Below are positions 94 to 23,049 of a stretch of 64,000 nucleotides of DNA, one piece after another. Position 1 is the first letter of the stretch, and each line of letters starts with the position of its first letter. The stretch covers positions 1 to 64,000 of the forward strand of contig JAUSJX010000097.1 of NCBI GenBank assembly GCA_030647435.1. The letters run 5' to 3'. The stretch comes from Candidatus Rokuibacteriota bacterium. Lineage in GTDB: Bacteria; Methylomirabilota; Methylomirabilia; Rokubacteriales; CSP1-6. The notes below the pieces were generated by a model. It was not told the origin of the DNA, did not search any database, and saw only the letters and a program-made list of their open reading frames with translations. Both the position numbers and the translations under genes were made by a program.

Positions 94-300
94 CGCGGTG
101 CCGTTGACTGTGGCGACGGCGTGAGGCACGCCGGCATAGGCCGCCACCTCGCGCTCGAAGCGATCGACGAACGGCCCGACGGAGGAGACCCAGTTGGTGT
201 CGAGGCATTCCTTGAGGTACTTCCACTCGTTGCCGGCCAGATGCGGCACCGCATTGGGGATCACGCGCCGGGGGGGGATCACGCGCCGGGGCGTGCTCAC
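94..300 (-). CDS. legC: LegC-type nucleotide-sugar aminotransferase, N-terminal part only
   Basis: The GTG start at 300 overlaps the stop of the upstream epimerase (GTGA). The frame reads IPNAVPHLAGNEWKYLKE, then CLDTNWVSSVGPFVDRFE, then an AVATVNGTA stretch, which is the hallmark N-terminus of LegC-type PLP aminotransferases. These transaminate a 4-keto-6-deoxy nucleotide sugar in legionaminic acid synthesis. About 69 codons are recognisable; left of 94 the frame stays open but no longer resembles the family, because the sequence there matches on the other strand. This is the last visible gene of the minus-strand nonulosonate operon. The enzyme family is clear, but the integrity of the gene is not. 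Confidence 0.8.
256..288. repeat. Two 15-bp direct copies in the legC N-terminus
   Basis: GGGGATCACGCGCCG occurs at 256-270 and again at 274-288, a period of 18 bp. Because 18 is a multiple of three, the duplication stays in frame and simply repeats an RRVIP block at the very N-terminus of LegC. It looks like a replication-slippage product. Confidence 0.85.
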
Positions 301-2568: not shown

Positions 2569-2570
2569 GG

Positions 2571-5868: not shown

Positions 5869-7826
5869 CGCGCCGCCTCCTGCGCCCGCTCGCGGCGGAT
5901 CTCGTCCACCGCGGCGAGGAGCCGGGCGCCGAGCCGGCCGTCCACCGGATGGACGTAGCGCGAAGAGAAGGCGCGCCCGCGCCTGACGAGATCAGCGCGC
6001 GCGGCGGGGTCGTCGAGCACCCGGCGGAGCGCGGCCGCGAGCCCCGCGGCGTCACCCAGGTCGACTCGGACCACAGCACCCGCGCTGACGTAAGGCAGCA
6101 TGTATTCGCCCTCAAAATCCTTGCCCGGCGTCTGCACGGCCACCACCGGGCAGTCCATCGCCATGGCCTCGAGCCCGGCCATCGACGTAACCATGACCGC
6201 GGCGTCGGCACCGGCAAAAAGACGGTGGATGTCGTAGTCCTTGGTCAGGATGGCGTCGGCGCATCCCCACTCGCCCACTTGTTTCCTGAGCCGGGCGAGG
6301 TCCTCGTTCGGGTGGACCTTCACGACGACGTCCACCCCGCCGAGACTCCGCGCCGCGCCGTACATGGTCCGGTAGAGCGCCTCTCGCTCCTGGGCCGAGA
6401 AGAGCATCGAGACGTACTTCGAGACGAGCACGATCAGCGGCCGCTCGGGCAGAAGCCCAAAGTCGCGGCAGATCTCTTCACGCAGGCGCGCCGGCGGCAC
6501 GAGCCGCGCCGCGTTCGAGCGCGGGTCGCCGACGGCCGAGACGCGGGCCGGGGCCACGCCTTCCTCCGTCACCAGAGCCTGGCGGAGATGCTCGCCGATG
6601 ACGAGGATCCGATCGCCGACATCGAAGGCGTTGGTCCTGTCGCGCGAGAGGATGAGCGTGCCGGAACAGAGCACCGACGGGATGCCGCGCGCCCGCGCCA
6701 CCAGAGCGGCGGCGCGCTCGGCGTAGCGCCGGTCGCTGGTGATGACGACCGCCTCCGGCTGCAGGGCGTCGAAGGCCCGGAAGGCCGCTTCCTGGTGCAG
6801 CAGCGCTGTGAGCAGGCTCTGCTCGACCGCCGAGCGCAGGAAGGGGCGCAGCACGGGCAGAAGCGACACGCCGTGCCACTCGAGCCGAGCGGCCAGGCCA
6901 GGGTCGCTCTCGATGCGCCGCCATGCCCGCCTGAGGACGGGCCGGTAGCGGCGCACAAGGGTCGCCGCCTCGTCCCGAGGCAGGTAGTCCATGGCAAAAC
7001 CCGCAGGCACCCCGGCGCGGGCCAGCCCCTCGACACGCGCTTCGAGCTCCGGATCGTCGTTGGAGCTTGCCACGACGCACGCCTTCGCCCCCGCCGCCCG
7101 CACGGCTTCCACGAGGGGATCGACGACGAAGTGGTGCCTGCTGCGGCAGGTGATGAAGAGGAGACGGCGGCCTTCTCCCCCCGCGAACGCCGGCGCACCG
7201 CGGCGTGGCTGGTCGAGCAGGGCGCGGAGACGCAGGCGTTCCTCGCGAGGGAAGAGCGCGGCGTACGCGCGCGCGAACGCCCATGGCAGGGGGCTCCGCG
7301 CCGCGACGCCCACCGGGATGTCGCGCCCGCGCGCGAGCAATCGCGCCAGCCGCTCGGGCACCGAGGCGCCGCTCAGCAACCGGATCGCCTCCGGCTTGAC
7401 CTCGTCCAAGACCTGTTCGAGCACGCCCACGCGCTCCATGACCTCGAGGCGGAGCAAAAGCGCCTTCGAGACCGTCAGGAGGTCGGGCAGCCAGATGCCG
7501 CGGTAGCGCAGTGCAGGCTCGCGGTCGGAGTCCGGCCACCAGCCGGCGACGAGGCGCCGCGTCCCCTGCGCGAGCGCGCGGGAGTCGACCTTGAAGGACT
7601 CGTCGTCGTAGTATCGGACCGTGGACCCCGCCGGGAGCGCCGCCGCGTCCACGAGCTGGCGCGCCGTCAGCACCGACACCTCGTGCTCCCGCGAGAGCCG
7701 TGCGGCGGCCCGCGCCACCGCGGCACGGTAGCGACGCACGTACCATGCGTAGAGCCGCCGCACCCACGGCCGTCGGAACTCGCCGATGCTGCGCGTGGCC
7801 TCGGTGACGAGGAGGACGCGGCTCAT
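5865..7826 (-). CDS. GT-B-like surface-polysaccharide protein, function unknown
   Basis: This 653-aa protein has no recognisable signal peptide. The C-terminal third looks like the donor half of a GT-B glycosyltransferase or CDP-glycerol/2-epimerase-like fold: VVVKVHPNEDL, a DYDIHRLFAGADA stretch, then TSMAGLEAMAMDCPVVAVQTPG. The middle (residues about 220-330) begins with a second Rossmann-like strand, LLFITCRSRHHF. The first 200 residues are Arg-rich and unassigned. Position between the acyltransferase and the synthase, with overlaps on both sides, suggests a cytoplasmic transferase using the CMP-nonulosonate or a precursor. No specific substrate can be assigned. Confidence 0.8.
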   Translation of the reverse strand: MSRVLLVTEATRSIGEFRRPWVRRLYAWYVRRYRAAVARAAARLSREHEVSVLTARQLVDAAALPAGSTVRYYDDESFKVDSRALAQGTRRLVAGWWPDSDREPALRYRGIWLPDLLTVSKALLLRLEVMERVGVLEQVLDEVKPEAIRLLSGASVPERLARLLARGRDIPVGVAARSPLPWAFARAYAALFPREERLRLRALLDQPRRGAPAFAGGEGRRLLFITCRSRHHFVVDPLVEAVRAAGAKACVVASSNDDPELEARVEGLARAGVPAGFAMDYLPRDEAATLVRRYRPVLRRAWRRIESDPGLAARLEWHGVSLLPVLRPFLRSAVEQSLLTALLHQEAAFRAFDALQPEAVVITSDRRYAERAAALVARARGIPSVLCSGTLILSRDRTNAFDVGDRILVIGEHLRQALVTEEGVAPARVSAVGDPRSNAARLVPPARLREEICRDFGLLPERPLIVLVSKYVSMLFSAQEREALYRTMYGAARSLGGVDVVVKVHPNEDLARLRKQVGEWGCADAILTKDYDIHRLFAGADAAVMVTSMAGLEAMAMDCPVVAVQTPGKDFEGEYMLPYVSAGAVVRVDLGDAAGLAAALRRVLDDPAARADLVRRGRAFSSRYVHPVDGRLGARLLAAVDEIRRERAQEAAR

Positions 7827-8446
7827 GTGCGGGCCCCGGCCGGTTTGGCCGGCACGCCCATCACCGTAGCGCCCGGCGTGACGTCATGGGTCACGACGGC
7901 GCCGGCCGCCACGGTCGCTCCTGCGCCCACGGTGATCCCCGGAAGCAGCACGGCACCCGCGCCGATAAAGACGCCGGCCTCGACGATGACGGTGCCCGAC
8001 AGGACAGCGCCCGGCGAGATATAGGCGTGGTCGCCGATCCGGCACTCGTGCTCGATCACAACACCGCTGTAGATGACCGCGTTGTCGCCGACCACGACGT
8101 GGGCGCCGAGCACGCCGCCGGGAAACACCACGCTGCCTTCGCCGATCGCGCTCGAGCGCGAGACGACGGCGCGGGGATGGACCAGGCTGGGCGCTTCGAT
8201 GCCGGCCGATTTGAGGAGGGCGAAGAGGGTGGCCCGCTGAGTGAGCGCGGTGTTGCCCACTCCCACGATGGCCCCGTCGATCTTTCCGGCGCGCGCGAGC
8301 GCCGCCACATCCTTGTCCACGCCCAGCACGCCGGGGCCCTTCGACCGGTCGGTGAAGCCCGCCACCGTCCAGCCGCACTCGGCCGCGAGGTCGGCGACGG
8401 CCCGCCCGTGCCCGCCCGCGCCCAGGATCAGCAGCCGCCCGGCCAT
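7823..8446 (-). CDS. NeuD/PglD-like hexapeptide acyltransferase
   Basis: The 207-aa protein has an N-terminal Rossmann-type PglD_N domain (LLILGAGGHGRAVADLA) and a left-handed beta-helix of hexapeptide repeats from about residue 90 (IGEGSVVFPGG, VVVGDNAV, IGDHAYISPGAVLSG). Such enzymes transfer acetyl from acetyl-CoA to a sugar amine (LegH, PglD, PseH-like roles) or hydroxyl (NeuD). In this operon it is the candidate for N-acetylating the LegC product. Its stop overlaps the next gene by 4 bp. Confidence 0.9.
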   Translation of the reverse strand: MAGRLLILGAGGHGRAVADLAAECGWTVAGFTDRSKGPGVLGVDKDVAALARAGKIDGAIVGVGNTALTQRATLFALLKSAGIEAPSLVHPRAVVSRSSAIGEGSVVFPGGVLGAHVVVGDNAVIYSGVVIEHECRIGDHAYISPGAVLSGTVIVEAGVFIGAGAVLLPGITVGAGATVAAGAVVTHDVTPGATVMGVPAKPAGART

Positions 8447-8453
8447 GGTCCCT

Positions 8454-9179
8454 TCACCGCCGACCGGGCGGAATAGGCGCGCGCCCCTCCCGCAGCAGCA
8501 GCTCGGCCAGGAGAAAGTCCCACTCGGTGTCGATGTTGACCGAGGCCTCGAAGCCCTGGACCACGCCGCGGTTGTCCTCGCCGAGGACGTGCCCGTGGTC
8601 CATCAGCATCGCGTAGCGGGTGACATACACGGCGCCCGACGGCTGGTACACGGGCGGGGCATCCTGACGCCGGACATACTTGTGCCCGTCGGGAAAAAGA
8701 GCGACCGTTCGATCGCCGTCGAGCGTCTTCATGAAGAACGGATGGTACGAAGCCTCGCACAGCGTCTGTGCCGAGTCCGAGCCCGTCTCGATGACCTTCC
8801 GGATCGTCTCGTCGATCTCGACGCCGGCGCGGAACGGCGACGTGGGCTGGAGCGTCACGATGAGGTCGGGCCTTGCTTTCGCGGCGGACTCGAGCCACCG
8901 CACCGCGTGCTGGAGCACCGGCACCATGCCGGCCTGATCCGAGGCGAGCTCGGCCGGTCTCATGAATGGCACCTCACCGCCGTGGCGCCTCGCTTCCTCG
9001 GCAATCTCTGGGCTGTCCGTCGAGACGATCACGCGCGTGAGCAGCTTGGATTCGCGGGCCGAGGCGATGGCCTGGCCGATCAGCGAGAGCGCACCGAGCG
9101 TGCGCAAATTCTTTCCCGGCAGGCCCTTGGAGCCGCCGCGCGCGGGAATGACGCCGAAGGCGTACGGCGCCCGCGCCAT
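8454..9179 (-). CDS. legF: CMP-nonulosonic acid cytidylyltransferase (NeuA/LegF family)
   Basis: The 241-aa acylneuraminate cytidylyltransferase activates the free nonulosonic acid with CTP. The N-terminal nucleotide loop VIPARGGSKGLPGKN is intact, as are STDS and LQPTSPFR; the C-terminal NIDTEWDF matches the metal-binding Asp region. It lacks the C-terminal phosphatase domain of some NeuA proteins. It sits 7 bp upstream of the acyltransferase gene and 3 bp downstream of the oxidoreductase. Confidence 0.93.
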   Translation of the reverse strand: MARAPYAFGVIPARGGSKGLPGKNLRTLGALSLIGQAIASARESKLLTRVIVSTDSPEIAEEARRHGGEVPFMRPAELASDQAGMVPVLQHAVRWLESAAKARPDLIVTLQPTSPFRAGVEIDETIRKVIETGSDSAQTLCEASYHPFFMKTLDGDRTVALFPDGHKYVRRQDAPPVYQPSGAVYVTRYAMLMDHGHVLGEDNRGVVQGFEASVNIDTEWDFLLAELLLREGRAPIPPGRR

Positions 9180-9182
9180 CCG

Positions 9183-10166
9183 CTACACCGTGACCCAGCG
9201 GCGCTCGGCCGCGGACTTCCGGGCGGCCTCGATGACGCGCATCGTCTTGAGCCCGTCCCAGCCGTCACAGACCGGCTTGGTTTCTCCGCGCATACACGCG
9301 ATGAAGTGCTTCGCTTCCTCCACGTACATATCGTTGAGCTGGCCGCCGGACGGGTAGACCTCCCAGCGGTTGGCTGTGGGGTCGAACAGCCGGATGTCGT
9401 TCTCGAGGCGCCGCCACTGGATGACGCCTTGCTCACCCATCAGCTCGAAGTGGCTATGGACGTTCCAGGCGAAGAGATTCATGTGGATGCTGCCGATCGC
9501 ACCCGAAGCGAAGCGCACCGTGAGATCGGCGAGGTCGTCCGTCGCGATCTCGAGACTCGAGATATGATCCACGACGGCGCTCACCTCCGTGATCTCGCCG
9601 CACAGCCACCGCATGTAATCGATGGCATGGCTCTCGTCGAGAAGGCAGCCGCCGCCCTGCTTGGCGTCGGCCATGTAGAACGTCCGGTAGTCGGCGCCGG
9701 GATAGCGGGTGCTCAGGTGATAGGCGTACTCGGTACGTGCCGCTCGCAGCGCTCCGATCCGCCCCGCCTTGAGCATTTTCTCCACCAGCTGCATGGGCGG
9801 CCAGTAGCGCCAATTGTACGCGGTGAGAACCCGCAGGCCCTTGTCGTCGCACTCACGAAGCAGCGTTTCCACGCCGGCGGCGGACTGCGTCAGCGGCTTC
9901 TCGATCATCAGATGCGCGCTTCGGTCCACCCCCATGCGGGCGATGGCCAGGTGGGAGTCGGGCGGCGTGCAGATCACCACGCCCTGCGCGCCGTCGAGAG
10001 CTGCCTCGAGCGTCGGCGTGACAGAGGCGAAAGGGAACTGGCGAGCGGCCGAGTCCCGCTGGGCCGGCGCGGCATCGTACGCCGTCAGCTCGTCCACGCC
10101 GATAGCTCGGAAGTTCTGCAGGTGCCGGCGGCCGATGGATCCGAGCCCAACGATGGCGAGTTTCAC
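9183..10166 (-). CDS. Gfo/Idh/MocA-family sugar oxidoreductase (PtmF-like)
   Basis: The 327-aa NAD(P)-dependent oxidoreductase has GLGSIG at residues 7-12 and the family EKP motif at 89-91, followed by a typical alpha/beta C-terminal domain with a GGGCLLDE..HAID stretch containing the usual active-site His. Gfo/Idh/MocA proteins oxidise or reduce ring or side-chain hydroxyls of sugars. In Campylobacter, PtmF in the legionaminate cluster belongs here, which is the most informative analogy. The ATG at 10166 overlaps the radical SAM stop (ATGA). Confidence 0.88.
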   Translation of the reverse strand: MKLAIVGLGSIGRRHLQNFRAIGVDELTAYDAAPAQRDSAARQFPFASVTPTLEAALDGAQGVVICTPPDSHLAIARMGVDRSAHLMIEKPLTQSAAGVETLLRECDDKGLRVLTAYNWRYWPPMQLVEKMLKAGRIGALRAARTEYAYHLSTRYPGADYRTFYMADAKQGGGCLLDESHAIDYMRWLCGEITEVSAVVDHISSLEIATDDLADLTVRFASGAIGSIHMNLFAWNVHSHFELMGEQGVIQWRRLENDIRLFDPTANRWEVYPSGGQLNDMYVEEAKHFIACMRGETKPVCDGWDGLKTMRVIEAARKSAAERRWVTV

Positions 10167-11707
10167 TGTTCCCCCTTGCGCGACGTGATGGGCAGGCCCA
10201 CCTCGCGGACGGCGGAGCCGTGCCGCTTGTTCCAGTCGGCCTCGTACTCGGCGATGTGCCGTAGGTCACGCAGCACCATGAGCTCCCGGAGCCCGTACAG
10301 CTCCACGGCGTTGAACTTCTTGCAGATGACCGCGGTCACCCGCGTGGCATCGCCGAGATCGAGGATGAAGGCTTCGAGGTCTCCGCCGTATTGCTCGAGA
10401 ATCCGCTGCTTGTAGGTGTAGTACCACTCGGTGCCCGGATAGGGCGTCACGAAGAACGGCTTGACCTGAAGCCCGAGGCGGTCCCAAGCCTTGACATTGT
10501 CGTAGATGCTGTCGAAATCCTCGTCCGGGAATCCGAACATCTGGTTCGGGATCGGCCGGATCCCGGCGTCGATCGTCCACAGGAGGGACCGCTCGTTCGT
10601 CTCGGGCGTGGCACCCTTGCCAATCGTCTTCATCACCCGCTGCGAGAAGCTCTCGTAGCCGTAGAGCAGGTGCGAGCAGCCGGCCTGCTTGAGCGTGGTC
10701 AGGAGCTCGCGGTTCACGAGCGTGGCGTGGCTCGTCCCGCCCCAGTGGACCCCGGAGCACTTCTCAGGGTCGTGTGGCACGCCGTCCCGGACACACTGCG
10801 GCTGGAGGCCCTCCTCGATCCACAGCCGCGCGATGTCCGTCAGCCACTTCTTCCCGGAGAACTGGTGCATGGTCATCAGGTTCTCGTCCAGAAAACTGAT
10901 GAAGTCCACGCCGAAGCGCTCGCGGACGTACTTGACGAGGTTCACGACGTAGCGCGGGTCGTGGTACCGGATCTTGCGGTCGTACGTGAACTTGACGTCA
11001 CGCTCACCCGCGGCGTTCTCCTCGATGGTCATGTCGCCGGAGATGCCCAGGTGGAAGCAGAAGCGGCAGATGAGCGAGCAGCCGTAACTGGCGTTGATGT
11101 CGAGCCGGCGGCGCGCCAGCATCCCTTCCTCGGAGAAAAGGGCCATGCTGTTCTTGAAGTAGATGTCGAGTGGAAAGAGATCCCAGGCCGGATACGGCAG
11201 CTGGTCGATGTCCGGCATGAGCGGTTGCTCGGGATTGAGGTGGCTCCGTCCCGACGGGTCGCGCCAGATGAGCCCCTTGACGGCTGCCCAGTCGGGGCTG
11301 CCCGCATTCACACGCTTGAGCAACTCGAGGAAGGAGATGAAGGCTTCGCCCACCACCCCCACGTCTACCCACGGCAGGAAGCGCATCATGTCGTGCGGCA
11401 TGCTCGTGAGGACGCCGCCGCCAAGAACGACGAGCGACCCGGGCGCCGCCTCCTTGGCCGCCCGCACGATGTGCTTGATACCCGCGTACGCCGTGGTGAT
11501 CCCGCCCACCGCGATCACATCCCACCGATCGGCCTTGAGGATCTGGGTCAGCACGACATCGGACGCCCGCCAGGCGTTCGCGTCGTAGACCTGCACCTGA
11601 TGGCCGTCCCGCACGGCGAGGCTCGCGAGGAGGGCCATGCCGTACGGCACGTGCCGCGGCTCGTCCTCCTCGCGCACCAACGGATTGACGAAGAGCACCT
11701 TAGCCAT
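10163..11707 (-). CDS. B12-domain-like radical SAM enzyme
   Basis: This 514-aa protein has an N-terminal cobalamin-binding-like Rossmann domain (residues 1-150; LFVNPLVREED, GGITTAYAG, LGGGVL) and a radical SAM core with CX3CX2C at Cys210, Cys214 and Cys217. The canonical DxHxxG cobalamin motif is not obvious, so B12 use is uncertain. Such proteins methylate unactivated carbons or rearrange sugars. The gene sits within the nonulosonate operon, overlapping the oxidoreductase, so a modification of the glycan or its carrier is plausible. It is not a standard member of legionaminate pathways. Confidence 0.88.
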   Translation of the reverse strand: MAKVLFVNPLVREEDEPRHVPYGMALLASLAVRDGHQVQVYDANAWRASDVVLTQILKADRWDVIAVGGITTAYAGIKHIVRAAKEAAPGSLVVLGGGVLTSMPHDMMRFLPWVDVGVVGEAFISFLELLKRVNAGSPDWAAVKGLIWRDPSGRSHLNPEQPLMPDIDQLPYPAWDLFPLDIYFKNSMALFSEEGMLARRRLDINASYGCSLICRFCFHLGISGDMTIEENAAGERDVKFTYDRKIRYHDPRYVVNLVKYVRERFGVDFISFLDENLMTMHQFSGKKWLTDIARLWIEEGLQPQCVRDGVPHDPEKCSGVHWGGTSHATLVNRELLTTLKQAGCSHLLYGYESFSQRVMKTIGKGATPETNERSLLWTIDAGIRPIPNQMFGFPDEDFDSIYDNVKAWDRLGLQVKPFFVTPYPGTEWYYTYKQRILEQYGGDLEAFILDLGDATRVTAVICKKFNAVELYGLRELMVLRDLRHIAEYEADWNKRHGSAVREVGLPITSRKGEQ

Positions 11708-11716
11708 GCTGTCCCC

Positions 11717-12709
11717 TCACGCGAGCGCCCCGACGGAGGCGGCGCGCCGTGTCCACTCGTTCGCCGGCGCGTCGCCCCGCAACGGCAGGTCATTCGTGTC
11801 GAGGCGCGGCAGCTCGAGCGGCCCGCGCAGGTTCGTCGCGAGATCGACCCGGGTTGTCAGCCCGAGCGCGCAGCCGGCACCGGGCAGGAGGCTGAGCGTG
11901 TCGGCGTTGTAGGCGCCGAACGGATAGCACATGACCCAGTCGGCCGGTGGCCCGCCGTGCACCCGGGCCAGAAACGCCGCCGTCCGCGCGATCTCGGCGG
12001 CCTGGTCGGCGCGCTCGAGAGAATCGAGCCAGACGTGGTCGGCGCCATGCCCGCCCACCTCCATGCCGAAGCGGACCATGGTCCGAAGCTGGGAGAGATC
12101 CATGTAGAGCTCCTGCGCCACCGTGTCCTCGTCGGCGCCGGCGTACTCATCGAAGAGTCGGCCGGTGAGGGCGGCGCGCACGGGTTCGGGCAGACCACGC
12201 TGCAGCACCCGCTTGATGAAGGTGATCTCAGGGCCGTCGAAGCGCGAGGTTCGAGCGTACTGAGAGTAGAGCGCGTCGCCGGCCGGCAGCGGCCACTCCC
12301 CTCGGTAGTCTTCGAGCATGTCCAGGATCCGGCGGGCTACCTTGCCGTGATCCGGGGCCTCCGCCAGGACGATCTGGATCTTGTGGGTGTCCAGTACCCG
12401 GCGCTCCTCGACCGCCGAGACCGGCGCGTAGAAGCTGCCGGAGAGCCCGCGCTCCACGAGACGGGGGAGCACCACGGTGAAGTGGTCGAGGAAACCGTCG
12501 TCAAACGTCAGCAGGCACGCATTGGGCGGCAGACGGCGCTCGCCGCGCGCGGCCGCGAGCACGTCGCGCGTGCCGCAGACGCGGTAGTGCCGGGTGATGT
12601 AGTCGAGCTGGCCGTCGAACTCTTCGATCGAGCGCACCTTGAGGCCTGGATAGCGCGTGCGCGCGCCGTCGCGAACGTAGTGGTACATCACGATGCTGAG
12701 CGCGCTCAC
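11717..12709 (-). CDS. NodB-type polysaccharide deacetylase family protein
   Basis: The 330-aa protein has an N-terminal VMYHYVRDG block and TFDDGF at residues 68-73, the metal-binding DD motif of carbohydrate esterase family 4. A later GGHGADHVWL stretch supplies His residues and CYPFGAYN resembles the family's Arg/Pro motif. I chose the GTG at 12709 because it forms a GTGA overlap with the preceding gene. No signal peptide is visible, so it may act on a cytoplasmic glycan intermediate. It probably deacetylates an N- or O-acetylated sugar of the same glycan. Confidence 0.87.
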   Translation of the reverse strand: MSALSIVMYHYVRDGARTRYPGLKVRSIEEFDGQLDYITRHYRVCGTRDVLAAARGERRLPPNACLLTFDDGFLDHFTVVLPRLVERGLSGSFYAPVSAVEERRVLDTHKIQIVLAEAPDHGKVARRILDMLEDYRGEWPLPAGDALYSQYARTSRFDGPEITFIKRVLQRGLPEPVRAALTGRLFDEYAGADEDTVAQELYMDLSQLRTMVRFGMEVGGHGADHVWLDSLERADQAAEIARTAAFLARVHGGPPADWVMCYPFGAYNADTLSLLPGAGCALGLTTRVDLATNLRGPLELPRLDTNDLPLRGDAPANEWTRRAASVGALA

Positions 12710-13650
12710 CGTGAGAAGACCCCGAGGAAGGCGGAGCTCCACACGAGGCTCGCGGGCGTGCGCTCGAAGACCTCCATGGCGGCCGCCAGGCGGTTGTAGA
12801 ACCGCGGAGCGATAGCCTCGAAGGTGGGCGGCAGCGGATGCGGATGCACCGCCATGAAGGCGGGCGAAGAAAACCCATGCGACGCTGCGGCCATCGCCAG
12901 CTCGTGCGGGGAGTGTTGGCGCCGGGGCCGGGCGAAGGACGGCACGGCCGCGGGCGCGGCCGGCCGGCCGGCCTCGCCGGCATCCTCTGCCAGAGCCTCG
13001 CCGAGCTCGTCCACGGCCTCGCGCAGACGGGCCACGAACTCTTTCAGGCGGTCGTGGCCGCCGGCGTCGAAGGCAAAACCCCGGAGCTCGGCCAACAAAG
13101 CACCCGCGGCGCCGCCCTCGATCTCGCGTTGGGTATAGTCGTTCAGGCTCGCCAAGTTGAAGAGCCGATTCCGGCAGGACACAACGAGCACACCGCCAGG
13201 CCGCAACAGCCGGGCTGCCTCCCGGAAGAACTCGCCGTCACTATCGAGGTACTCGACGAGGCCGATGGCCGTGACGGCGTCGGCGCCGCCCGCCGGCAGC
13301 CCGCTCGCGAGCGCATCGCCTTCACGCAGGTGGAGACGGCGCAGCACCGCCTCGGACAGCGTCCGCCGCCGCCCTTCGGCCTCCTCGATCATTCCGCCCG
13401 CGATATCCACGCCCGTCACCTCGAAGCCCAGGCCGGCCGCGTGGGCGCAGAGCTCCCCGCCCCCACAGCCCATGTCCACAAGCTGCCCGCGCCGTGAGCC
13501 GAGTCGTTCGACCACTGCCTCCATGGTCAGGCGCAGGCGCTGGACGCCCACCGGGTAGGCGCGAGGGTGGCGACCGTCATCGTAGGCGCGGCGCAGCCAT
13601 TGGCGCGCGTGCTCCGAGAAGTACTCCCGGACGTAGGCCAGCTCGCTCAC
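12706..13650 (-). CDS. Class I SAM-dependent methyltransferase
   Basis: The 314-aa protein has the SAM-binding glycine motif (LVDMGCGGGELCAHAA), an acidic residue after strand 2 (VTGVDIAGGMI) and the post-I region AVTAIGLVEYL. The C-terminal 100 residues contain a Pro/Ala-rich linker (residues about 225-245) and an unassigned tail. It is joined to the Maf-like gene by a 4-bp overlap and to the deacetylase by GTGA. O- or N-methylation of the surface glycan is the contextual guess; the substrate is unknown. Confidence 0.88.
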   Translation of the reverse strand: MSELAYVREYFSEHARQWLRRAYDDGRHPRAYPVGVQRLRLTMEAVVERLGSRRGQLVDMGCGGGELCAHAAGLGFEVTGVDIAGGMIEEAEGRRRTLSEAVLRRLHLREGDALASGLPAGGADAVTAIGLVEYLDSDGEFFREAARLLRPGGVLVVSCRNRLFNLASLNDYTQREIEGGAAGALLAELRGFAFDAGGHDRLKEFVARLREAVDELGEALAEDAGEAGRPAAPAAVPSFARPRRQHSPHELAMAAASHGFSSPAFMAVHPHPLPPTFEAIAPRFYNRLAAAMEVFERTPASLVWSSAFLGVFSR

Positions 13651-14654
13651 GATCGCCCGTCCACCCCGGCGAGAAACTCGTCGAAGGGCGCGAACTCGAC
13701 CCCGTCGCCGAAGAGGATCCCGCCCTCGGTGCAGTTGAACGTCTCGCAGTCGGCCTCACGGGCTGTCGCGAGAAAGACATCGCGGAACCAGAGATAGGCC
13801 GGGTCGCAGAACCACGTTTCGCCCACGTAGGGGTTCAGCACGTGCGTGTATGCCTCCGCGAACCGGCTGCCAAGGAGCTGGACCAGCTCCGGGTAGTACT
13901 GGGTCTTCTCGTAAGCCGTGCCGGGAGCGTAGCCAAAGTCCATCCCCACGAGCCCGATGCGCCGCTTGCCCAGCACCGCGTGAGTCAGCACCCACGCGGC
14001 GGTGCCGACATTGCCGCCACCGTTGAGGCACGGCAGGCCGTTCATCTCCCAGAGGCGGCGCGAGAGACTGCCGGGCTTGTCATAGTCGTCGTACATCGGG
14101 TTCCACCAGTACAGCTCCATGCGCGCCTGCTCGCAGCGCTCGACCACCGCGGGCGCCGCCGAGGTCGCTGCGGCGACCTTGATCTTGGGCCCGTAGGTGT
14201 CCACGAGCCCGACCAGGGCCCGGTTGGCCGCCAACTCGTCCGCGTGGTGGACCGGGTCCATCTCCTGGCGACGGAAATAGTCGTCGACCGGAGCCGCCTG
14301 GAGCCCCGGGGCGCCGAACCAGCGGACGATGCGATCGGGATGCGGGTCCACGCTCACCACGACATGCGGCACGACCCCGGCGCGCAGACATGCGCCAAGC
14401 GCGCCGTCTGCGGCAACGATGGTGCCCGCGAAGCCCGAGGCGCGCAGCCGCTCCAGACTCCGGCGGCGATGGAGGCTCGGGCCCGCGCCCACGACGATGG
14501 CGGCGTCCCCCGCCCCGAGCGGGGTCTCGACGAGATCGAGGACGGAGCGCACGATGCGTGAGTGGTTGCGCTCGGCATTGGCGAGCCCGACGCCCGCCAC
14601 GCGCTCGAACGTCGCCGCCTCAAGCGCGCCGGCTATCTTTCGTCCCAACTCCAT
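13647..14654 (-). CDS. Maf/DUF115-family protein, putative nonulosonate transferase
   Basis: The 335-aa protein belongs to the DUF115 (MptE-like, motility accessory factor) family: VVGAGPSLH at residues about 54-62 and a core with GGGNVGTAAW and GLVGMDFGY. Maf proteins are proposed to transfer pseudaminic or legionaminic acid to flagellin in the cytoplasm. Finding one in an operon that makes a CMP-nonulosonic acid strongly suggests protein O-glycosylation, probably of flagellin, although no flagellin gene is in the window. The ATG at 14654 lies inside the preceding small gene (35-bp overlap). Confidence 0.85.
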   Translation of the reverse strand: MELGRKIAGALEAATFERVAGVGLANAERNHSRIVRSVLDLVETPLGAGDAAIVVGAGPSLHRRRSLERLRASGFAGTIVAADGALGACLRAGVVPHVVVSVDPHPDRIVRWFGAPGLQAAPVDDYFRRQEMDPVHHADELAANRALVGLVDTYGPKIKVAAATSAAPAVVERCEQARMELYWWNPMYDDYDKPGSLSRRLWEMNGLPCLNGGGNVGTAAWVLTHAVLGKRRIGLVGMDFGYAPGTAYEKTQYYPELVQLLGSRFAEAYTHVLNPYVGETWFCDPAYLWFRDVFLATAREADCETFNCTEGGILFGDGVEFAPFDEFLAGVDGRS

Positions 14655-15033
14655 CCGTCTTCGCCTTGTCGTCGCCCTTCTCGGGAGTTGCTCGGCTCGC
14701 CGTCCTCGTGGTCGCCTCGCCTGCGGCAGCGGCTCCCCCTGCGGGCTGCGCCTCACCCTTCTCGGGAGTTGCTCGGCTCGCTGTCCTCGTGGTCGCCTCG
14801 CCTGCGGCAGCGGCTCCCCCTGCGGGCTGCGCCTCACCCTTCTCGGGAGTTGCTCGGCTCGCCTGCGGCTGCGCCTCACCCTGCCACATCAGACTCTTCT
14901 TGCTCACGAAGCAGATGCTGCCGCCGAGGCGCGAGAGCGCCTTCTTCTCGAACTCGTCCGTCGAGTCCGCGGCGTCCGCCTTGTCCTCGATCGTGGCGTC
15001 CACCTTGTAGTTGCCCTTGAGGAACTCCGGCAT
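14620..15033 (-). CDS. Small repeat-containing protein of unknown function
   Basis: The 137-aa protein has a conserved-looking N-terminal 50 residues (LKGNYKVDATIEDKADAADS, then acidic and helical) and an Ala/Gly/Thr-rich tail built from a 27-residue repeat whose unit begins GEAQPAGGAAAAGEATTRTA. It has no signal peptide or transmembrane segment. The ATG at 15033 is two bases after the regulator stop, and its 3' end overlaps the Maf gene by 35 bp, so its translation probably influences Maf synthesis. I do not recognise the family. Confidence 0.7.
   Translation of the reverse strand: MPEFLKGNYKVDATIEDKADAADSTDEFEKKALSRLGGSICFVSKKSLMWQGEAQPQASRATPEKGEAQPAGGAAAAGEATTRTASRATPEKGEAQPAGGAAAAGEATTRTASRATPEKGDDKAKTDGVGTKDSRRA
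14680..14881. repeat. 81-bp in-frame tandem repeat
   Basis: CTCGGGAGTTGCTCGGCTCG recurs at about 14680, 14761 and 14842, a period of 81 bp. There are two complete copies and a third shortened one. The first two copies differ at only about one position, indicating recent duplication. It encodes a 27-aa repeat in the small protein's tail. Length can change without frameshift. Confidence 0.9.
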
Positions 15034-15035
15034 GC

Positions 15036-15689
15036 TCAGCTCCTTCTGGCGGCGCGCCGACCCTCGCCATTCGAGGCGGGAGTTGCCAGACGCCGCAGCG
15101 TGAGGAACTTCTGGGGCGGGATGCCCATGCGCGCCAGCTCGGCGAGGTGCCGCTCCGGTCTCTCGAACGTGGCGACGACGATCCCATCGACGTCGGTCCC
15201 GGGCAGCTCAGAGACCGGCCGGACGGGAAATCCCAGGAAATGGCCGCCCCCGCCGTCGGCGAAGATCCCGACGGGCTCGAGCCCGAACTCTTTGAGCGTC
15301 AGATACGCCAGCTCGGCCGCCTCCCCCGTGCCGCAGAGGGCGATGCGCTTCATGCCGTTCTGGGCCAGCTGCCCCATGGCGCCGCGCAGGTTGTCGCGGG
15401 TACGCCGGTAGAGCTGAAGCGAGTGCCCCATGTACTCGTAGGTGAGGCGGGCCTTCTCGGCGACACCCTTGGGCGTCAGCATGTAGCGCAGGCGCTTGCG
15501 AGCGAGAGGCTTGGTGCGAAAATCGCGGACCTTGATGAAGCCCTTGCCGGCCAGCCTCTTCAGGTACAGGTTGGTCAGCCCGAGCGCCACCCCCAGGCGC
15601 TGGGCCAGGACGCGCTGGGTCAGCGGCGTGCCCTCCTCGATGGCGGTGAGGATCTCCAGTTCCCGCTCGACCTGACGCTGGATGGCCAT
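15036..15689 (-). CDS. MarR/EPS-type winged-helix regulator fused to a Rossmann-like sensor domain
   Basis: The 217-aa protein has an N-terminal winged helix (ERELEILTAIEEGTPLTQR, then an NLYLKRLAGKGFIKV recognition helix and wing) typical of EPS-associated MarR-type regulators. From about residue 112 follows a Rossmann-like domain (KRIALCGTGEAAELAYLTLK, GIFADGG, VDGIVVATFERPE) resembling PglD_N or CoA-binding domains. It probably senses a nucleotide, CoA or nucleotide-sugar ligand. I chose the ATG at 15689; an in-frame TTG lies three codons upstream inside the operator. It heads the nonulosonate operon and probably regulates itself and the flippase. Confidence 0.83.
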   Translation of the reverse strand: MAIQRQVERELEILTAIEEGTPLTQRVLAQRLGVALGLTNLYLKRLAGKGFIKVRDFRTKPLARKRLRYMLTPKGVAEKARLTYEYMGHSLQLYRRTRDNLRGAMGQLAQNGMKRIALCGTGEAAELAYLTLKEFGLEPVGIFADGGGGHFLGFPVRPVSELPGTDVDGIVVATFERPERHLAELARMGIPPQKFLTLRRLATPASNGEGRRAARRS

Positions 15690-15692
15690 GGC

Positions 15693-15729
15693 GTTCAATA
15701 TATGAACATAGGGGGCCCGCCCGAGTCAA
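15693..15729 (-). promoter_or_regulatory. Promoter/operator of the regulator-nonulosonate operon
   Basis: A 15-bp palindrome GTTCA-ATATA-TGAAC (15693-15707) ends three bases before the ATG at 15689. On the minus strand, TTGACT (15724-15729) is followed after 21 bp by TATATT (15697-15702), which is 7 nt before the ATG, implying a leaderless transcript. The same architecture recurs at 17240-17276. The palindrome covers the presumed -10, as expected for a repressor site or a spacer-remodelling activator. Confidence 0.75.
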
Positions 15730-15733
15730 ACGG

Positions 15734-17236
15734 CTAGTCATCCCCCCTGAGGAAGGCAAGGAACCTGCGGGGGTCCACGAGCTCCCGGGCATAGCGGAGA
15801 TTCCCGGCCGTCCCGGTATGGGTCAGCCACAGCACCCCCGCATACGCGAGGAGAGCGGCCGCCATCCCCCCGGCCAGGGCCGCCGGCTCAGGGCCACCGG
15901 CGGCCACCAGGCCAGCCCGGGTCCCCTCGTTGAGGGCTACGAGTACGGCGAAGCCGGCCAGATAGGTCACGGTCACCCGCTGGAAGCCGATGCCTGCCAG
16001 CTGGCGCGTCCATCGGATGAAGACCCAGCAGGGAAAGACCACCAGGAGCAGGCGCACAGCCGCGGCCCCTGTGCCGCCCCAGATCGGGACCAGCAGGATC
16101 ATGGCCCCGAGATAGACGGCCAGGCGCAGCAGGACCACCGGGACGAAGCGGGCGTGCTGATCCATGGCGTAGATGACGAACTGGTAGGGGTTGAAGGCCG
16201 TCTGGGCCAACGCAGCCAGGACGAGGACCATCAGCGGTAGGACGGCGGGAAGGAATCGCTCGCCGTAGAGGACCGTGACGATGGGCTCGCGCAGGGCCCA
16301 GAGCCCGAAGGCCGCCGGCACTGCGATGAAGAGCAGCCTGTCCATGGCCGAGGCGAAGACGCGTCGGATCTCGGCGGCAGCCTCCGCGCCCGGCGTGGCG
16401 AAGAGGCGCGACAAGCGCGAGAGAAGAAGCTGGAAGGGGTAGGCGTTGAGGGTCCCGAGGACCTCCCAGAGCGTCCGCGCCACCTGATAGTACCCCGCGG
16501 CCGTCAGACCCGCCCAGCGCGCGACGAGGACGCGATCGAGAGAGTCCTGGAGCATCCCGATGGGGCTCGTGATGAGCAGCGGACGCGCGTAGCGCCAGTA
16601 GGAGGCGAGGGTCTCGCGGTCGGGGCGGCGCACGGCCACGCCGCGGCGGACGACGAGGATATAGGCGCCCACGACGATCTCCGTCGAGCCCTCGACCAGC
16701 AGGGCGGCCGCCACCCATCGGATGTCCGGCGCCCAGACGAGCACCGCCACCGTGACGGCGAAGCGCAGCGCCTTGCCCGCCACCTGGGTCGCGCCGTGCG
16801 CGACGGCCCACTCGCGCCCGACGAAGGCGATGCTCAGGCTGGTGGAGAGGTTCGTCAGGAGCTGGGCGGCGAGGACGAAGAGGACCACCGTCAGCGGCAC
16901 GCCGGCCGGAATCACCAGCGAGCCCCAGCGCGCCACCGCCAGCACGATGACGAGGGCCGTACCCTGGATGGCCAGCTGAAGCGCGGCCATGGTCCCGACG
17001 CAGCGGCCAAGGTCACCGCCTTCCGCCACGCGCTTCTGGTGAGCCTGGCCGAACCCGGGAAGCAGGAGGGCGGTCAGCGTCCCCACCAGGCCCATGCTGA
17101 AGCCCAGGATGCCGAGCGCGTCCGGCCCGAGCCGCCGGGCGATGAGGATGGTGGTGAGGAAGCCGAAGCCGCTGGCGGCCCAGGTGCCGGCGAACAGAAC
17201 CAGGGACTTCCTGCCGAGATTCCCCTGCGGGCCCAC
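15734..17236 (-). CDS. Wzx-like oligosaccharide flippase (MOP superfamily)
   Basis: The 500-aa integral membrane protein has about 12-14 hydrophobic segments and begins with the typical GTWAASGFGFLTTILIARRL helix of polysaccharide biosynthesis (Wzx/RfbX) exporters. It would flip an undecaprenyl-linked repeat unit across the inner membrane. I chose the GTG at 17236, because it has exactly the same spacing to the upstream palindrome as the regulator's ATG; a TTG three codons upstream is possible. It lies upstream of the nonulosonate operon with its own copy of the operator, suggesting that the nonulosonic acid is also used in a lipid-linked glycan. Confidence 0.9.
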   Translation of the reverse strand: MGPQGNLGRKSLVLFAGTWAASGFGFLTTILIARRLGPDALGILGFSMGLVGTLTALLLPGFGQAHQKRVAEGGDLGRCVGTMAALQLAIQGTALVIVLAVARWGSLVIPAGVPLTVVLFVLAAQLLTNLSTSLSIAFVGREWAVAHGATQVAGKALRFAVTVAVLVWAPDIRWVAAALLVEGSTEIVVGAYILVVRRGVAVRRPDRETLASYWRYARPLLITSPIGMLQDSLDRVLVARWAGLTAAGYYQVARTLWEVLGTLNAYPFQLLLSRLSRLFATPGAEAAAEIRRVFASAMDRLLFIAVPAAFGLWALREPIVTVLYGERFLPAVLPLMVLVLAALAQTAFNPYQFVIYAMDQHARFVPVVLLRLAVYLGAMILLVPIWGGTGAAAVRLLLVVFPCWVFIRWTRQLAGIGFQRVTVTYLAGFAVLVALNEGTRAGLVAAGGPEPAALAGGMAAALLAYAGVLWLTHTGTAGNLRYARELVDPRRFLAFLRGDD

Positions 17237-17239
17237 GGT

Positions 17240-17276
17240 GTTCAATAGATGAACATAGAGCCCGGGAACGGGTCAA
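17240..17276 (-). promoter_or_regulatory. Second copy of the promoter/operator, in front of the flippase
   Basis: The palindrome GTTCA-ATAGA-TGAAC (17240-17254) lies three bases from the GTG at 17236. On the minus strand, TTGACC (17271-17276) is followed after 21 bp by TCTATT (17244-17249), 7 nt before the start codon. Spacing is identical to 15693-15729, and both contain CTATGTTCATNTATTGAAC. Confidence 0.75.
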
Positions 17277-19134: not shown

Positions 19135-20079
19135 GTGAACCTCTACGACGATTTCCGTCCCGACGTGGCCGCCCTGCTCAAGGAGCAGGACGCGAAGCTG
19201 CCGGCGCCCGACCCCCGGGCACGGAGCGGCGACAGGCTGGGCGCGCTCGGCCGCCTCCGGAGCCTGGCCGCGCTCTACGCGCTCGGCGCGCAGGTCAAGA
19301 CGGGGCTCCACCGGCGGCTCGTCTACACCAACCTGCGCCTGGACTGGTTCCAGGAGTTCCAGGACTACTGGATGGGCGAGCTCGGCAACCGTCCGATCCA
19401 TCCGCACGACTTCTACTTCCTCTCGGGCGTGTACCGGCAGCGGGCCCAGACGCTCTACTTCGAGCACCTCGAACGCCCCGACCTCGCCTCCGACGACAAG
19501 CACCTCGACGCCTGGCGTGACTCGCGCATGGTCTCGTACCTGTTCCTGCACGCGTACCGGCTGGCTCTCTCCCCGCTCCGCGTGCACCCGTTCACGCGCT
19601 GGGTACCGCGGGGCGGGCGCGTGGCCGAGTACGGCTGCGGTGCCGCGCCCATCGTGACGTCGCTCGCCCGCTATTACGGTCACCTCGACCTTCGGCTGGT
19701 GGGCGCCGACATCCCGCACCTCCTCTTCCATTACGCGCGGTGGAAGTTCCGGGCGGACCGCTTCGTGACCATGGTGCCCATCCAGCCCAACGACGACGTG
19801 CCGCTGCCGGGCGAGTACGACACGATCTTCTGCCTCGAGACCTTCGAGCACCTGCCGCGCCCGATCGCCGCGGCCCAGCACCTCCACCGCGCGCTCACGC
19901 CGGGAGGCTGCCTCGTCTTCGACTATGTCCGCTCCGACGGCACGGGGCTCGACACGGCGGCGGCGCTCCGCGACCGCATCCCGGCGCTCGAGTTCATCCT
20001 GAAGCGCTTCGACATCGTCCAGGGCCGAGTGACCACGGACGGCGCCCACATCGAGCCCGCCGTGGCGCGGAAGCGCTAG
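19135..20079 (+). CDS. Class I SAM-dependent methyltransferase
   Basis: The 314-aa protein has the SAM-binding YGCGAAPIVTSLA motif at about residues 163-175, an acidic GADIPH after strand 2, and the ETFEHLPRP motif typical of methyltransferase_11/23 members, then LTPGGCLVFDYV. The N-terminal 150 residues form an extra helical domain (Trp/Tyr-rich), perhaps for substrate binding. The GTG start follows the mini-frame by 4 bp. The substrate is unknown; neighbours suggest lipid, glycan or envelope chemistry. Confidence 0.87.
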   Translation: MNLYDDFRPDVAALLKEQDAKLPAPDPRARSGDRLGALGRLRSLAALYALGAQVKTGLHRRLVYTNLRLDWFQEFQDYWMGELGNRPIHPHDFYFLSGVYRQRAQTLYFEHLERPDLASDDKHLDAWRDSRMVSYLFLHAYRLALSPLRVHPFTRWVPRGGRVAEYGCGAAPIVTSLARYYGHLDLRLVGADIPHLLFHYARWKFRADRFVTMVPIQPNDDVPLPGEYDTIFCLETFEHLPRPIAAAQHLHRALTPGGCLVFDYVRSDGTGLDTAAALRDRIPALEFILKRFDIVQGRVTTDGAHIEPAVARKR

Positions 20080-20091
20080 CCCGGCACGCGC

Positions 20092-22263
20092 ATGACGCGC
20101 CGGCCGCAGGTAGTGCTGGCCGCGCTCTGGCTCGCGATGTCCGCCGCGGCCGGGGTCTGGGTGGCGATCGACCACCGGCCGCCCGAGTGGGACCACGCCA
20201 ACCACCTCGAGCGCGCGTTGGACTGCTACCGCAGCCTGCGGATCGTCAGCGACTCGGGCGTGCGCGAGATCCTCGAGGCCTCCTCCTTCTACCCGCCGAT
20301 CGCGACCTGCGCGGCGGGCCTGCTCTACCTCCTGTTCCCGATCGCCCCGCTCACCGCGCAGGTGGTGATGATGGGCTTCCTCGGTCTGGCGCTGGCCTGC
20401 CTCTACGGCATCGGGCGCCGGCTGGCCGATGCCGAAACGGGTCTCTGGGCCGCGTTCTTGCTCGCCACGGCGCCCTTCGTCGTCTTCTCGCTCACCAACT
20501 TCCAGCTCGACCTGCCGCTGGCCGCCATGGTGGCGCTGGCGCTGTACTCGCTCGTGCGCGCGGAGAACTTCTCCGAGCCGCGCTGGGTGCTGGGGTTCGG
20601 CGCTGCGCTCGGGTTCGGCATGCTGACCAAGCCGCCCTTCGCGATTTACGTGGCGGCGCCCTTGGCGTGGAGCCTGTGGCGCGCGCTCCGCTCGACCGAT
20701 CGGCGCCGGCGCCTCGCATGGGCGGCGGCGTCCCTTGCCGTCGGTGGTCTGCTGGCCCTGCCCTGGTACGGACCGCGGCTCTTCGGGCTGCCCATGCAGA
20801 TCCTCAACCGCTCCTTCAAACAGGCCGCCGAGCAGCAGAACCCCGAGCCGCTGACGGCGACGGCGCTGCTGTATTATCCGCGGACCCTGCCGACCCAGCT
20901 GGGCGTCCTGGCAGCGCTCCTGCTCCTCTGGGGGCTCTGGGCGCTCAGAAGGAATCGAGCCGCGCGGCCGATCCTGTGGCTCGCCACGCTGGGCCCCTTC
21001 ATCGTCTTCTCCCTGATCCAGAACAAGAACCTCCGCTACACGCTGCCTATCCTTCCGGCCGCCGCCCTGGTGGCGGCCGTGGGCCTGCGTTCCCTGCCGG
21101 CCATGGCTCGTCGATGGGCAGGCGCAGCGGTAGTGGCCCTTGCCGCCATGCAGGTTTCGATGGCGCTCTTCCAGGTGCCGACACCGCCAACGCTGCCCGG
21201 CATGATCCTACCGATGGCGCTGGGCCGGGCGCCGAGCCGAGCCGACTGGCAGCACGACAGAATCCTCGCCGACCTCGGGCGCGCCAGTGGCGGCCGACCC
21301 GTGACGGTCGCCGTGATTCCCAACGACAACTTCTTCTCCGTGTCCAACTTTCGCTACGAAGTCGTCCGCCGCGGCCTGCCCTACCGGATGACACGGGCAT
21401 GGAGCGACGCCCCGCTCGGAGTGGACTTCGTCGTCCTCAAGAGCCGAGACCAGGGGCCGGCCTATGCGGCAGCCCGGCCCGAGCGACTGACCCGTGCCTT
21501 CGCCGGCGGCGATCCCTACTGGGTCTCGGCCTTCCCCGTGGTGGGTGAGTACCCCCTGCCCGATGGCAGCACCGGGATCCTGCGCGCCCGACGCATCCCA
21601 CCGCTGGCAGGAGCGACGCCGACCGTCGTGGCCGCCCGTCTCACGCGCGATCCGGAGCGCCTGCTTGCCGAGAACCTGCGCGAGGCCTTGGGCCTTCGGC
21701 TCGCCCTCGACTACGGGGAACGGGAGATCCTGCGCGGCAGCGTGAAGCGCGCGGTGCTCACGGCCGACTCGGTATTGATTGGTGAGTTCAACCGGCCCCG
21801 CCGCGCACCCCTGCGTGTGCGCGATGTCAGGCTCGAAGTCGACGGCCTCCTCCTCAATCCACAGCGCCTCATGGGAGAGGACCGGCTCGAGATCCTGGAT
21901 ATCGAGGGTCTACGCGTGAGCCGGCTCACGGTGACGGAACAAGATCTGGACATGTTCCTGCGCGGGCAGCCGGTGGGCCGGGGCATGACCATTGCGCTCC
22001 GCGACGGGACGGCGGAGGTGCTGGTAGCAGGTCTTGGCCCGGCGCTCCAGGCGCGCATCCGCTTCGGCCCCGCCGACCGGGACCGGCCCTTCACCCTGAT
22101 CGTGGAGCGGGTCAGCATCGGGGGCATTCGTATGCCCGGGTTTCTCGTGGACTGGATCATGCGGCACTTCGACCCGACCCCGGCGCTCAGGCGCCTGCCG
22201 ATTCCGGTGACGCTCGCCCCTGTGCGCATCCTGCGGGGACACATCGAGATCGGCGAAAAGTAA
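20092..22263 (+). CDS. GT39/ArnT-like glycosyltransferase fused to an LmeA-like (DUF2993) domain
   Basis: This 723-aa protein has two parts. Residues 1-480 are a polytopic PMT/ArnT-type glycosyltransferase: an initial helix, the acidic loop HRPPEWDHANHLER (catalytic-type Asp after the first helix) and roughly ten further helices. Residues about 520-723 match the LmeA/DUF2993 lipid-binding beta fold (LRLALDYGEREILRG, VRDVRLEVDGLLLNP, TEQDLDMFLRG, ending VRILRGHIEIG). LmeA is a periplasmic phospholipid-binding protein. The fusion suggests a lipid-linked sugar transferase with its own lipid-handling domain. The stop adjoins a strong terminator. Confidence 0.85.
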   Translation: MTRRPQVVLAALWLAMSAAAGVWVAIDHRPPEWDHANHLERALDCYRSLRIVSDSGVREILEASSFYPPIATCAAGLLYLLFPIAPLTAQVVMMGFLGLALACLYGIGRRLADAETGLWAAFLLATAPFVVFSLTNFQLDLPLAAMVALALYSLVRAENFSEPRWVLGFGAALGFGMLTKPPFAIYVAAPLAWSLWRALRSTDRRRRLAWAAASLAVGGLLALPWYGPRLFGLPMQILNRSFKQAAEQQNPEPLTATALLYYPRTLPTQLGVLAALLLLWGLWALRRNRAARPILWLATLGPFIVFSLIQNKNLRYTLPILPAAALVAAVGLRSLPAMARRWAGAAVVALAAMQVSMALFQVPTPPTLPGMILPMALGRAPSRADWQHDRILADLGRASGGRPVTVAVIPNDNFFSVSNFRYEVVRRGLPYRMTRAWSDAPLGVDFVVLKSRDQGPAYAAARPERLTRAFAGGDPYWVSAFPVVGEYPLPDGSTGILRARRIPPLAGATPTVVAARLTRDPERLLAENLREALGLRLALDYGEREILRGSVKRAVLTADSVLIGEFNRPRRAPLRVRDVRLEVDGLLLNPQRLMGEDRLEILDIEGLRVSRLTVTEQDLDMFLRGQPVGRGMTIALRDGTAEVLVAGLGPALQARIRFGPADRDRPFTLIVERVSIGGIRMPGFLVDWIMRHFDPTPALRRLPIPVTLAPVRILRGHIEIGEK

Positions 22264-22314: not shown

Positions 22315-23049
22315 CTATGAGGTCAGCTTGACCTTGTCGCCCACGAGGGTGACGAGCCGCACGGCCGCCAGCACCTTGATCACCACCCACGAAGGATCGA
22401 ACTCCAAGCGCCGCACGCTGAACTTCGGGCTCGATGGGTAGGCGTGGTGGTTGTTGTGCAGGCTCTCGCCGCCGGTGAGCCAGGCGAGCAGCCGGATATT
22501 GGTGGCGGAGTTGCCCAGGAAGTTCCTCCGCCCCCACCAGTGACCGAGCCCGTTGATCGAGGGCGCCAGCACGAAGACGTAGAGGACGAGGTGGGCGGCG
22601 ACCACGAAGATGCCCCACGCGGGACCGAGGACCAGCATCGCCAGGATCAGTCCGAGGATGCCGCCAAGCGTTCCCTTGGAGAAGATCCGGCGGTCCCACC
22701 AGTCCTCGCGGATGTCCTTCGCCCAGCGCGCCAGCGTCTCCGCGTTCCGCGCCTCGCGGATGTAATAGTAGACGTTGCCGAGCTGGATCTTCCAGAAGCC
22801 GTGGACGAGCGGGCTGTGCGGGTCCTTCTCCGTGTCGGTGAAGGCGTGGTGCTTGCGGTGGACGGCGACCCACTGGCGACGATCCTGGCCGGTGGTGATC
22901 CACAGGATGATCCGGAAGAAGAAGTCAGCGATCGGGTGCAGGGTCAGCGCGCGATGCGCCAGACCCCGGTGGAGGTAGATCGACGTCGCGAGCACGGCGG
23001 CCTGGGTCACGACCACCGTTAGAGCTACTGCCAGCATCGCTTTCAGCAC
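22315..23049 (-). CDS. Membrane acyl-lipid/acyl-CoA fatty acid desaturase (delta-9 type)
   Basis: The 244-aa di-iron membrane desaturase has all three histidine boxes: HRGLAHR (27-33), HRKHH (64-68) and HNNHH (near 197). Two pairs of hydrophobic segments flank them. It introduces a cis double bond in fatty acyl chains to adjust membrane fluidity. It lies 37 bp downstream of the ABC permease gene and may share its transcript, which ends at the 22262-22290 terminator. Confidence 0.93.
   Translation of the reverse strand: MLKAMLAVALTVVVTQAAVLATSIYLHRGLAHRALTLHPIADFFFRIILWITTGQDRRQWVAVHRKHHAFTDTEKDPHSPLVHGFWKIQLGNVYYYIREARNAETLARWAKDIREDWWDRRIFSKGTLGGILGLILAMLVLGPAWGIFVVAAHLVLYVFVLAPSINGLGHWWGRRNFLGNSATNIRLLAWLTGGESLHNNHHAYPSSPKFSVRRLEFDPSWVVIKVLAAVRLVTLVGDKVKLTS

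Follow-up and report, generated by a model that had tools for sequence, protein, structure and literature searches.

A GT-C transferase fused to an LmeA/DUF2993 domain is conserved in Rokubacteria

The window analysed here is a 64,000-nucleotide stretch of contig JAUSJX010000097.1 (assembly GCA_030647435.1) of a Candidatus Rokuibacteriota bacterium from the phylum Methylomirabilota. An open reading frame at 20092-22263 on the forward strand starts with ATG, has no internal stops, and encodes a protein of 723 amino acids (aa), in which an ArnT-like GT-C transferase (aa 1-501) is followed by a C-terminal LmeA/DUF2993 domain (about aa 520-723). The fusion is real and conserved, and it is the rule within Rokubacteria. 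The original prediction, made from the letters of this DNA, had placed a PMT/ArnT-type transferase and an LmeA/DUF2993 domain in one polypeptide, which was borne out by the reading frame, the Pfam matches, and the relatives. An assembly or frameshift artefact was ruled out, as the same open frame is present in dozens of genomes. With slightly more confidence than doubt, we propose that the protein is a periplasm-facing GT-C enzyme using a polyprenyl-phosphate sugar, whose LmeA domain would bind the glycosylated lipid as acceptor or product. The features of the gene are as follows (genomes, loci, contigs, and families are denoted below by G, L, C, and f numbers).

20092..22263, forward strand: fused gene, GT-C transferase plus LmeA/DUF2993 domain, 723 aa (open reading frame, Pfam, family profile, and model)
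20092..21171, forward strand: membrane part of the GT-C fold, aa 1-360, with PMT_2 at aa 68-217 (Pfam, match to ArnT 5f15, and hydropathy)
20191..20193, forward strand: Asp34 (WDHANH) in the predicted first periplasmic loop, candidate catalytic Asp (alignment; role taken from the GT-C literature)
21172..21642, forward strand: soluble alpha/beta domain, aa 361-517, lying up to about aa 501 inside the range aligned with ArnT and oligosaccharyltransferase (OST)
21649..22260, forward strand: LmeA/DUF2993 (TULIP-like) domain, aa 520-723 (PF11209; model)

Domain assignment and spread across Methylomirabilota

The Pfam annotation of the window protein revealed PMT_2 at aa 68-217 (62 bits, cut-off 26.1), Glyco_transf_22 (Alg9-like; 32 bits, cut-off 23.8), and PMT (31 bits, cut-off 22.7), with GT87 only below its threshold (18.1 bits, cut-off 25). 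The LmeA family (PF11209) was matched at aa 546-720 with 27.8 bits, barely above the cut-off of 27.3; when aa 517-723 were scanned in isolation, the score was 31.7 bits (E 2e-7). The family alignment comprised the window protein and 24 of the 28 loci recovered by a peptide-pattern scan (L021, L023, L027, and L030 were omitted as cut, broken, or tiny), and a second alignment comprised the window, 13 of these 24 loci, and L100. PMT_2 was matched by all 25 rows of the family alignment and PF11209 by 22 of the 25 at E <= 0.001 (best 7.3e-14). The LmeA assignment is firm because the relatives match PF11209, and the hidden Markov model search supports DUF2993 within aa 520-723. The top PF11209 score of the phylum in an unbroken frame was 56.4 bits (G080), and 64.8 bits were reached in G078 when read through a stop.

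The whole-protein profile matched 47 of the 95 Methylomirabilota genomes, including 45 of the 57 genomes of family f1, to which the window belongs, one of f2, and one of f10. By a count of the profile table, a single unbroken frame spans nearly all of the profile in 39 of the 47 matched genomes. The fusion is cut by contig ends in G044, G058, G063, and G067, and interrupted by a frame change in G077; the G078 frame stops near window residue 660, within the LmeA domain, and the G052 frame spans profile positions 63-715 only. The f10 match (G024; L098:6210-7979, reverse strand) is a distant relative of 589 aa consisting of the transferase part only, with no LmeA domain. This unfused protein has the motif RPPRWDEAHYL and is encoded in an apparent polysaccharide locus.

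The LmeA-domain profile gave 46 matches in 45 of the 95 genomes (split by the frame change in G077 and by contig ends in G044), all inside the sites of the whole-protein profile. PF11209 itself gave 37 matches in 35 genomes, with 32 genomes exceeding the cut-off; 34 of the 37 matches (E <= 1.1e-4) sit in the fusion, and three weak ones lie elsewhere. Two of the latter, antisense to a called gene in G055:C218 and in an arginine-rich 1027-aa frame of G049:C60 that may be no gene, did not match the family profiles. The profile search found no LmeA domain encoded as a separate gene in the 95 genomes, the third outside match being a sub-cut-off one in G091. That protein (G091:C60; L064:4281-4925, reverse strand) is free-standing, has 214 aa and a hydrophobic N-terminus, scores 19.8 bits with PF11209, and possibly represents another TULIP-like family; the adjoining genes are presumably MazG-like and Hsp20/DnaK-like.

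The peptide patterns of the fusion were also scanned against contigs of 84,980 species (the collection's own figure) and yielded the 28 loci, each carrying Rokubacteria or Rokuibacteriota in its title; the patterns were built from this protein, so other GT-C/LmeA fusions beyond Rokubacteria could escape them. The whole protein had no match among plasmids. The rarity expected in the original prediction does not hold within Rokubacteria, where the domain was never found as a separate gene, and the fusion appears to date back to the ancestor of the order that includes the window (families f1 and f2). No description of this architecture was found in the literature searched, mostly at title and abstract level; both component families are known.

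Structural models, candidate active site, and constraint

The AlphaFold2 model of the fusion, built from the 25-row alignment, had a predicted local distance difference test score (pLDDT) of 88.5 and a predicted template modelling score (pTM) of 0.86. Its aa 2-501 matched ArnT (5f15) with a Z-score of 30.6 and a root-mean-square deviation of 3.9 over 422 aligned residues. Structures of OST subunits and PglB matched nearly the same range, and PMT structures were also matched, the ArnT, OST, and PMT matches having Z-scores of 24-31. The sequence comparison of E. coli ArnT with the transferase by hhalign, however, gave a probability of 2% over 133 columns, with no significant match, and the whole-protein sequence profile retrieved no solved structure at E <= 1. 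The transferase is therefore ArnT-like by fold and not ArnT by sequence, and the term 'ArnT-like' of the original prediction is retained for the fold only.

Because aa 2-501 of the model align with ArnT, OST, and PglB, the ArnT periplasmic domain should have its counterpart in the soluble stretch around aa 380-501. No hydrophobic helix was found beyond aa 360 in the model or by hydropathy, which argues that the LmeA domain lies on the periplasmic side, as the active sites of GT-C enzymes do. The model thus supports the periplasmic C-terminal domain that had been predicted. Of 46 aligned rows, 44 have Asp34, and the two exceptions (L026 and L124) are without that stretch; in 38 of the 44 rows, Asp34 is followed by His. 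In GT-C enzymes, the Asp after the first helix is described as the proposed catalytic residue (PMC11127046); Asp34 is a candidate for this role, which is borrowed from that literature. The window genome holds six PMT_2 matches, so the fusion is not the only enzyme of this type there. The organism probably makes lipid A, since its genome contains LpxC.

The LmeA domain modelled separately had a pLDDT of 88.0 and a pTM of 0.80. According to PMC6791001, DUF2993 consists of Chorein-N plus TULIP, a lipid-binding fold, and the hosts named there are actinobacteria, cyanobacteria, and some firmicutes. Conservation is lowest in the LmeA half, with a mean identity to the window of 39% versus 52% for aa 1-360. 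Its invariant residues, including G549, P590, G649, P682, W688, D694, P695, and P703, are mostly structural in type. The Nei-Gojobori ratios of non-synonymous to synonymous substitution rates (dN/dS), calculated for six hand-picked pairs, were 0.16-0.41 in the LmeA half, 0.14-0.34 in aa 1-360, and 0.12-0.62 in the middle part. The LmeA half, which diverges most in identity, is under constraint in all six pairs by these ratios.

Genomic context of the fusion

Most relatives examined carry the fusion in a housekeeping block with the gene order malic enzyme, GT2, aminotransferase, (methyltransferase), fusion, nth, rplM, rpsI, argC, argJ, and rpsB. The nth, GT2, aminotransferase, malic enzyme, and methyltransferase genes were identified by Pfam in L005; rplM, rpsI, argC, argJ, and rpsB are names that we take to apply from the look of the sequences. 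The block was found on both sides of the fusion in 23 of the 27 loci of the contig set, though not every block gene in every locus; it was one-sided at contig ends in L020 and L021 and absent in L003 and L027. It was also found in 10 of 15 further loci, those without it being L113, L114, L115, L120, and L125. The two counts overlap, as some contigs are shared (for example, L120 is L003), and both ignore neighbour matches covering less than 40% (first set) or less than 30% (further 15) of the query. The GT2 gene lies upstream of the fusion in all 24 block loci having upstream sequence, and the block methyltransferase was above threshold in 19 of these. The best PDB match of the L005 GT2 protein was dolichol monophosphate mannose synthase (E 1.4e-15), followed by ArnC. 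A comparison of the GT2 protein with plasmids gave 512 records, all below 60% identity, and nothing useful.

The fusion in the window has other neighbours, of which the glycan locus and the desaturase are listed for context only.

297..17245, reverse strand: glycan locus with epimerases, UDP-sugar dehydrogenase, NeuB, cytidylyltransferase, an MptE-like protein, and a polysaccharide flippase-like protein
19135..20079, forward strand: class I S-adenosylmethionine methyltransferase, 12 bp upstream of the fusion (Pfam and neighbour comparison)
22315..23049, reverse strand: DesA-family-like fatty acid desaturase, convergent with the fusion (a neighbour that L003/L120, L113, and L115 retain)

The methyltransferase at 19135..20079 is probably co-transcribed with the fusion; only the window and L003/L120 were found to have it beside the fusion, and it differs from the block methyltransferase. 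The window genome retains the block on another contig (C98; L112), minus the methyltransferase and the fusion. There, about 480 bp (about 10259-10741) separate the aminotransferase and nth matches, and the GT2 gene survives with 65% identity. In a quick tree, the non-block copies (the window, L003/L120, L113, and L115, with L114) grouped together beside the block members with a support of 98 in the Shimodaira-Hasegawa-like approximate likelihood ratio test (SH-aLRT), and L125, whose short contig has no block genes, was placed elsewhere; L098 and L100 formed long branches, and the root and the positions of both are unsure. The simplest reading of these data would be one relocation in the window's clade, with the gene otherwise vertically inherited. 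The position next to the glycan locus is derived, because relatives keep the block and the window genome has the block without the fusion.

The original prediction had pointed to the adjoining glycan locus, which cannot serve as evidence of function: the move is clade-specific, and the locus therefore gives no ancestral clue to the substrate. The inference of a nonulosonic acid substrate from the neighbourhood was dropped for the same reason. Within the glycan locus, the MptE-like gene (13647-14879, reverse strand; PF01973), near NeuB and the cytidylyltransferase, has a weak match to the flagellin modification protein PseD; about the first 80 residues as called resemble tandem repeats and may be non-coding. 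Two overlapping forward-strand genes at 17336-18100 and 18090-18803 (254 and 237 aa) had no Pfam match at E <= 0.01.

Proposed function and comparison with known systems

In the proposed mechanism, a cytoplasmic enzyme like dolichol-phosphate-mannose (DPM) synthase would supply the donor; it is encoded by the GT2 gene, which precedes the fusion by a few genes in the ancestral locus. The GT-C half would lie in the inner membrane with its active site towards the periplasm and take the sugar from this polyprenyl-phosphate donor. On the same side, the LmeA/TULIP domain would bind the acceptor or product lipid by its hydrophobic part, and a single molecule would thus combine glycosylation with lipid handling. 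An LmeA domain that holds the lipid acceptor or product at a periplasmic active site would be the most economical mechanism.

Mycobacteria have LmeA (Rv0817c), which we take to be MSMEG_5785, and the transferase MptA as two proteins, of which LmeA has a membrane anchor or signal of its own, whereas in Rokubacteria there is one polypeptide, anchored through its transferase and not recognised as MptA by family models. The likeness lies in the requirement of a periplasm-facing GT-C glycosyltransferase for an LmeA/DUF2993 protein, as reported in PMC7643837. The same source describes mycobacterial LmeA as a periplasmic, phospholipid-binding protein with a TULIP domain, whose loss lowers the GT-C mannosyltransferase MptA and leaves short lipomannan; a coupling of mannan elongation to lipid transfer is presented there as the authors' speculation. 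The typical LmeA/DUF2993 protein is separate, with about 270 aa and a signal or single anchor (PMC6791001), whereas here the domain is C-terminal in a protein of about 700 aa. ArnT and other PMT_2-type bacterial GT-C enzymes resemble the fusion in the GT-C fold with a C-terminal soluble domain (aa 2-501). The fusion differs from ArnT, presumably a GT83 member, in carrying an LmeA domain as well, in having D-H rather than D-E, and in showing no significant sequence match, and no 4-amino-4-deoxy-L-arabinose (Ara4N) genes were found among its scanned neighbours. EmbA/B/C, AftD, and the GT136 protein ORF12, with its carbohydrate-binding modules, also combine a GT-C core with an extracytoplasmic ligand-binding domain (PMC11127046); however, their extra domain binds carbohydrate, and that of the fusion belongs to a lipid-binding family. 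The ClaspCone-1 lipocone proteins join TULIP to an enzyme that is predicted to act on lipid headgroups at the membrane, but the enzyme is a lipocone and the TULIP version is a different one, described as previously uncharacterised (PMC12419801).

Several results weigh against the proposed mechanism. Of the five block genes that were scanned with Pfam, none was recognised as a flippase. The common GT-C motif is DE (Asp-Glu), and the fusion has D-H where many GT-C enzymes have it. NCBIfam gave three matches at E <= 1 with no ArnT or MptA model among them; together with the hhalign result, this leaves ArnT orthology unsupported. The isolated LmeA domain had no PDB match by Foldseek at E <= 0.001. 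In a second structural comparison, CETP was the best match (Z 6.7, 145 aligned) and BPI came next, level with others (Z 4.8); both are TULIP proteins, and both matches are weak and could be due to chance. In the pair of the window and L003, the LmeA half was less constrained than aa 1-360 (dN/dS 0.41 versus 0.21). In addition, 12 of the 57 f1 genomes matched neither profile, and several of them are more than 90% complete, so the gene can be lost; in these 12 genomes, the protein is either dispensable or was missed by the search.

Other roles for the LmeA domain were also considered. A module that stabilises or regulates the GT-C half without presenting substrate would agree with M. smegmatis lacking LmeA, in which MptA protein is reduced and mptA mRNA is no different (PMC7643837), and with the largely structural type of the invariant residues. 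We regard this role as rather improbable, as the mycobacterial LmeA binds phospholipids (PMC7643837) and a lipid-binding TULIP fold (PMC6791001) would be needless for a mere stabiliser. Service on the donor side, by receiving or clearing the polyprenyl phosphate or its sugar at the active site, appears quite unlikely: it would suit the polyprenyl/dolichyl-dependent enzyme fold of the transferase half and the conserved DPM-synthase-like GT2 neighbour, but LmeA of mycobacteria works at the stage of lipomannan elongation or close to it (PMC7643837). The handling of acceptor or product would fit these mycobacterial data better than the hand-off of a polyprenyl-linked donor, the lipid-linked sugar hand-off of the original prediction.

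The C-terminal domain might finally be a relic or passive appendage with no lipid function. Its low conservation (39% versus 52%), the window LmeA score just passing the cut-off, and the stop that shortens the domain in G078 all point in this direction. Nevertheless, the domain is present in every genome of the order whose transferase escapes a contig-end cut, and the dN/dS ratios indicate constraint in each pair, which makes such a relic very improbable.

The handling of lipid acceptor or product by the LmeA domain remains our preferred reading. It could extend to a one-protein version of MptA and LmeA, in which TULIP holds a glycolipid, the GT-C half glycosylates it, and the product is helped off the inner membrane, yielding a Rokubacterial lipomannan-like or other lipoglycan. 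This extension is unlikely on present evidence; if true, sugar addition and lipid export would be a single coupled step. The architecture is built from known families, is not described in the papers found, and hints at coupling between the two halves. It places LmeA/DUF2993 in a lineage beyond the hosts named in PMC6791001 and gives independent genomic support for the LmeA/GT-C partnership. That an unrelated lineage has joined an LmeA-family domain to a GT-C enzyme suggests that both functions act at one site, and the fusion offers a single polypeptide for testing how LmeA acts on a GT-C enzyme.
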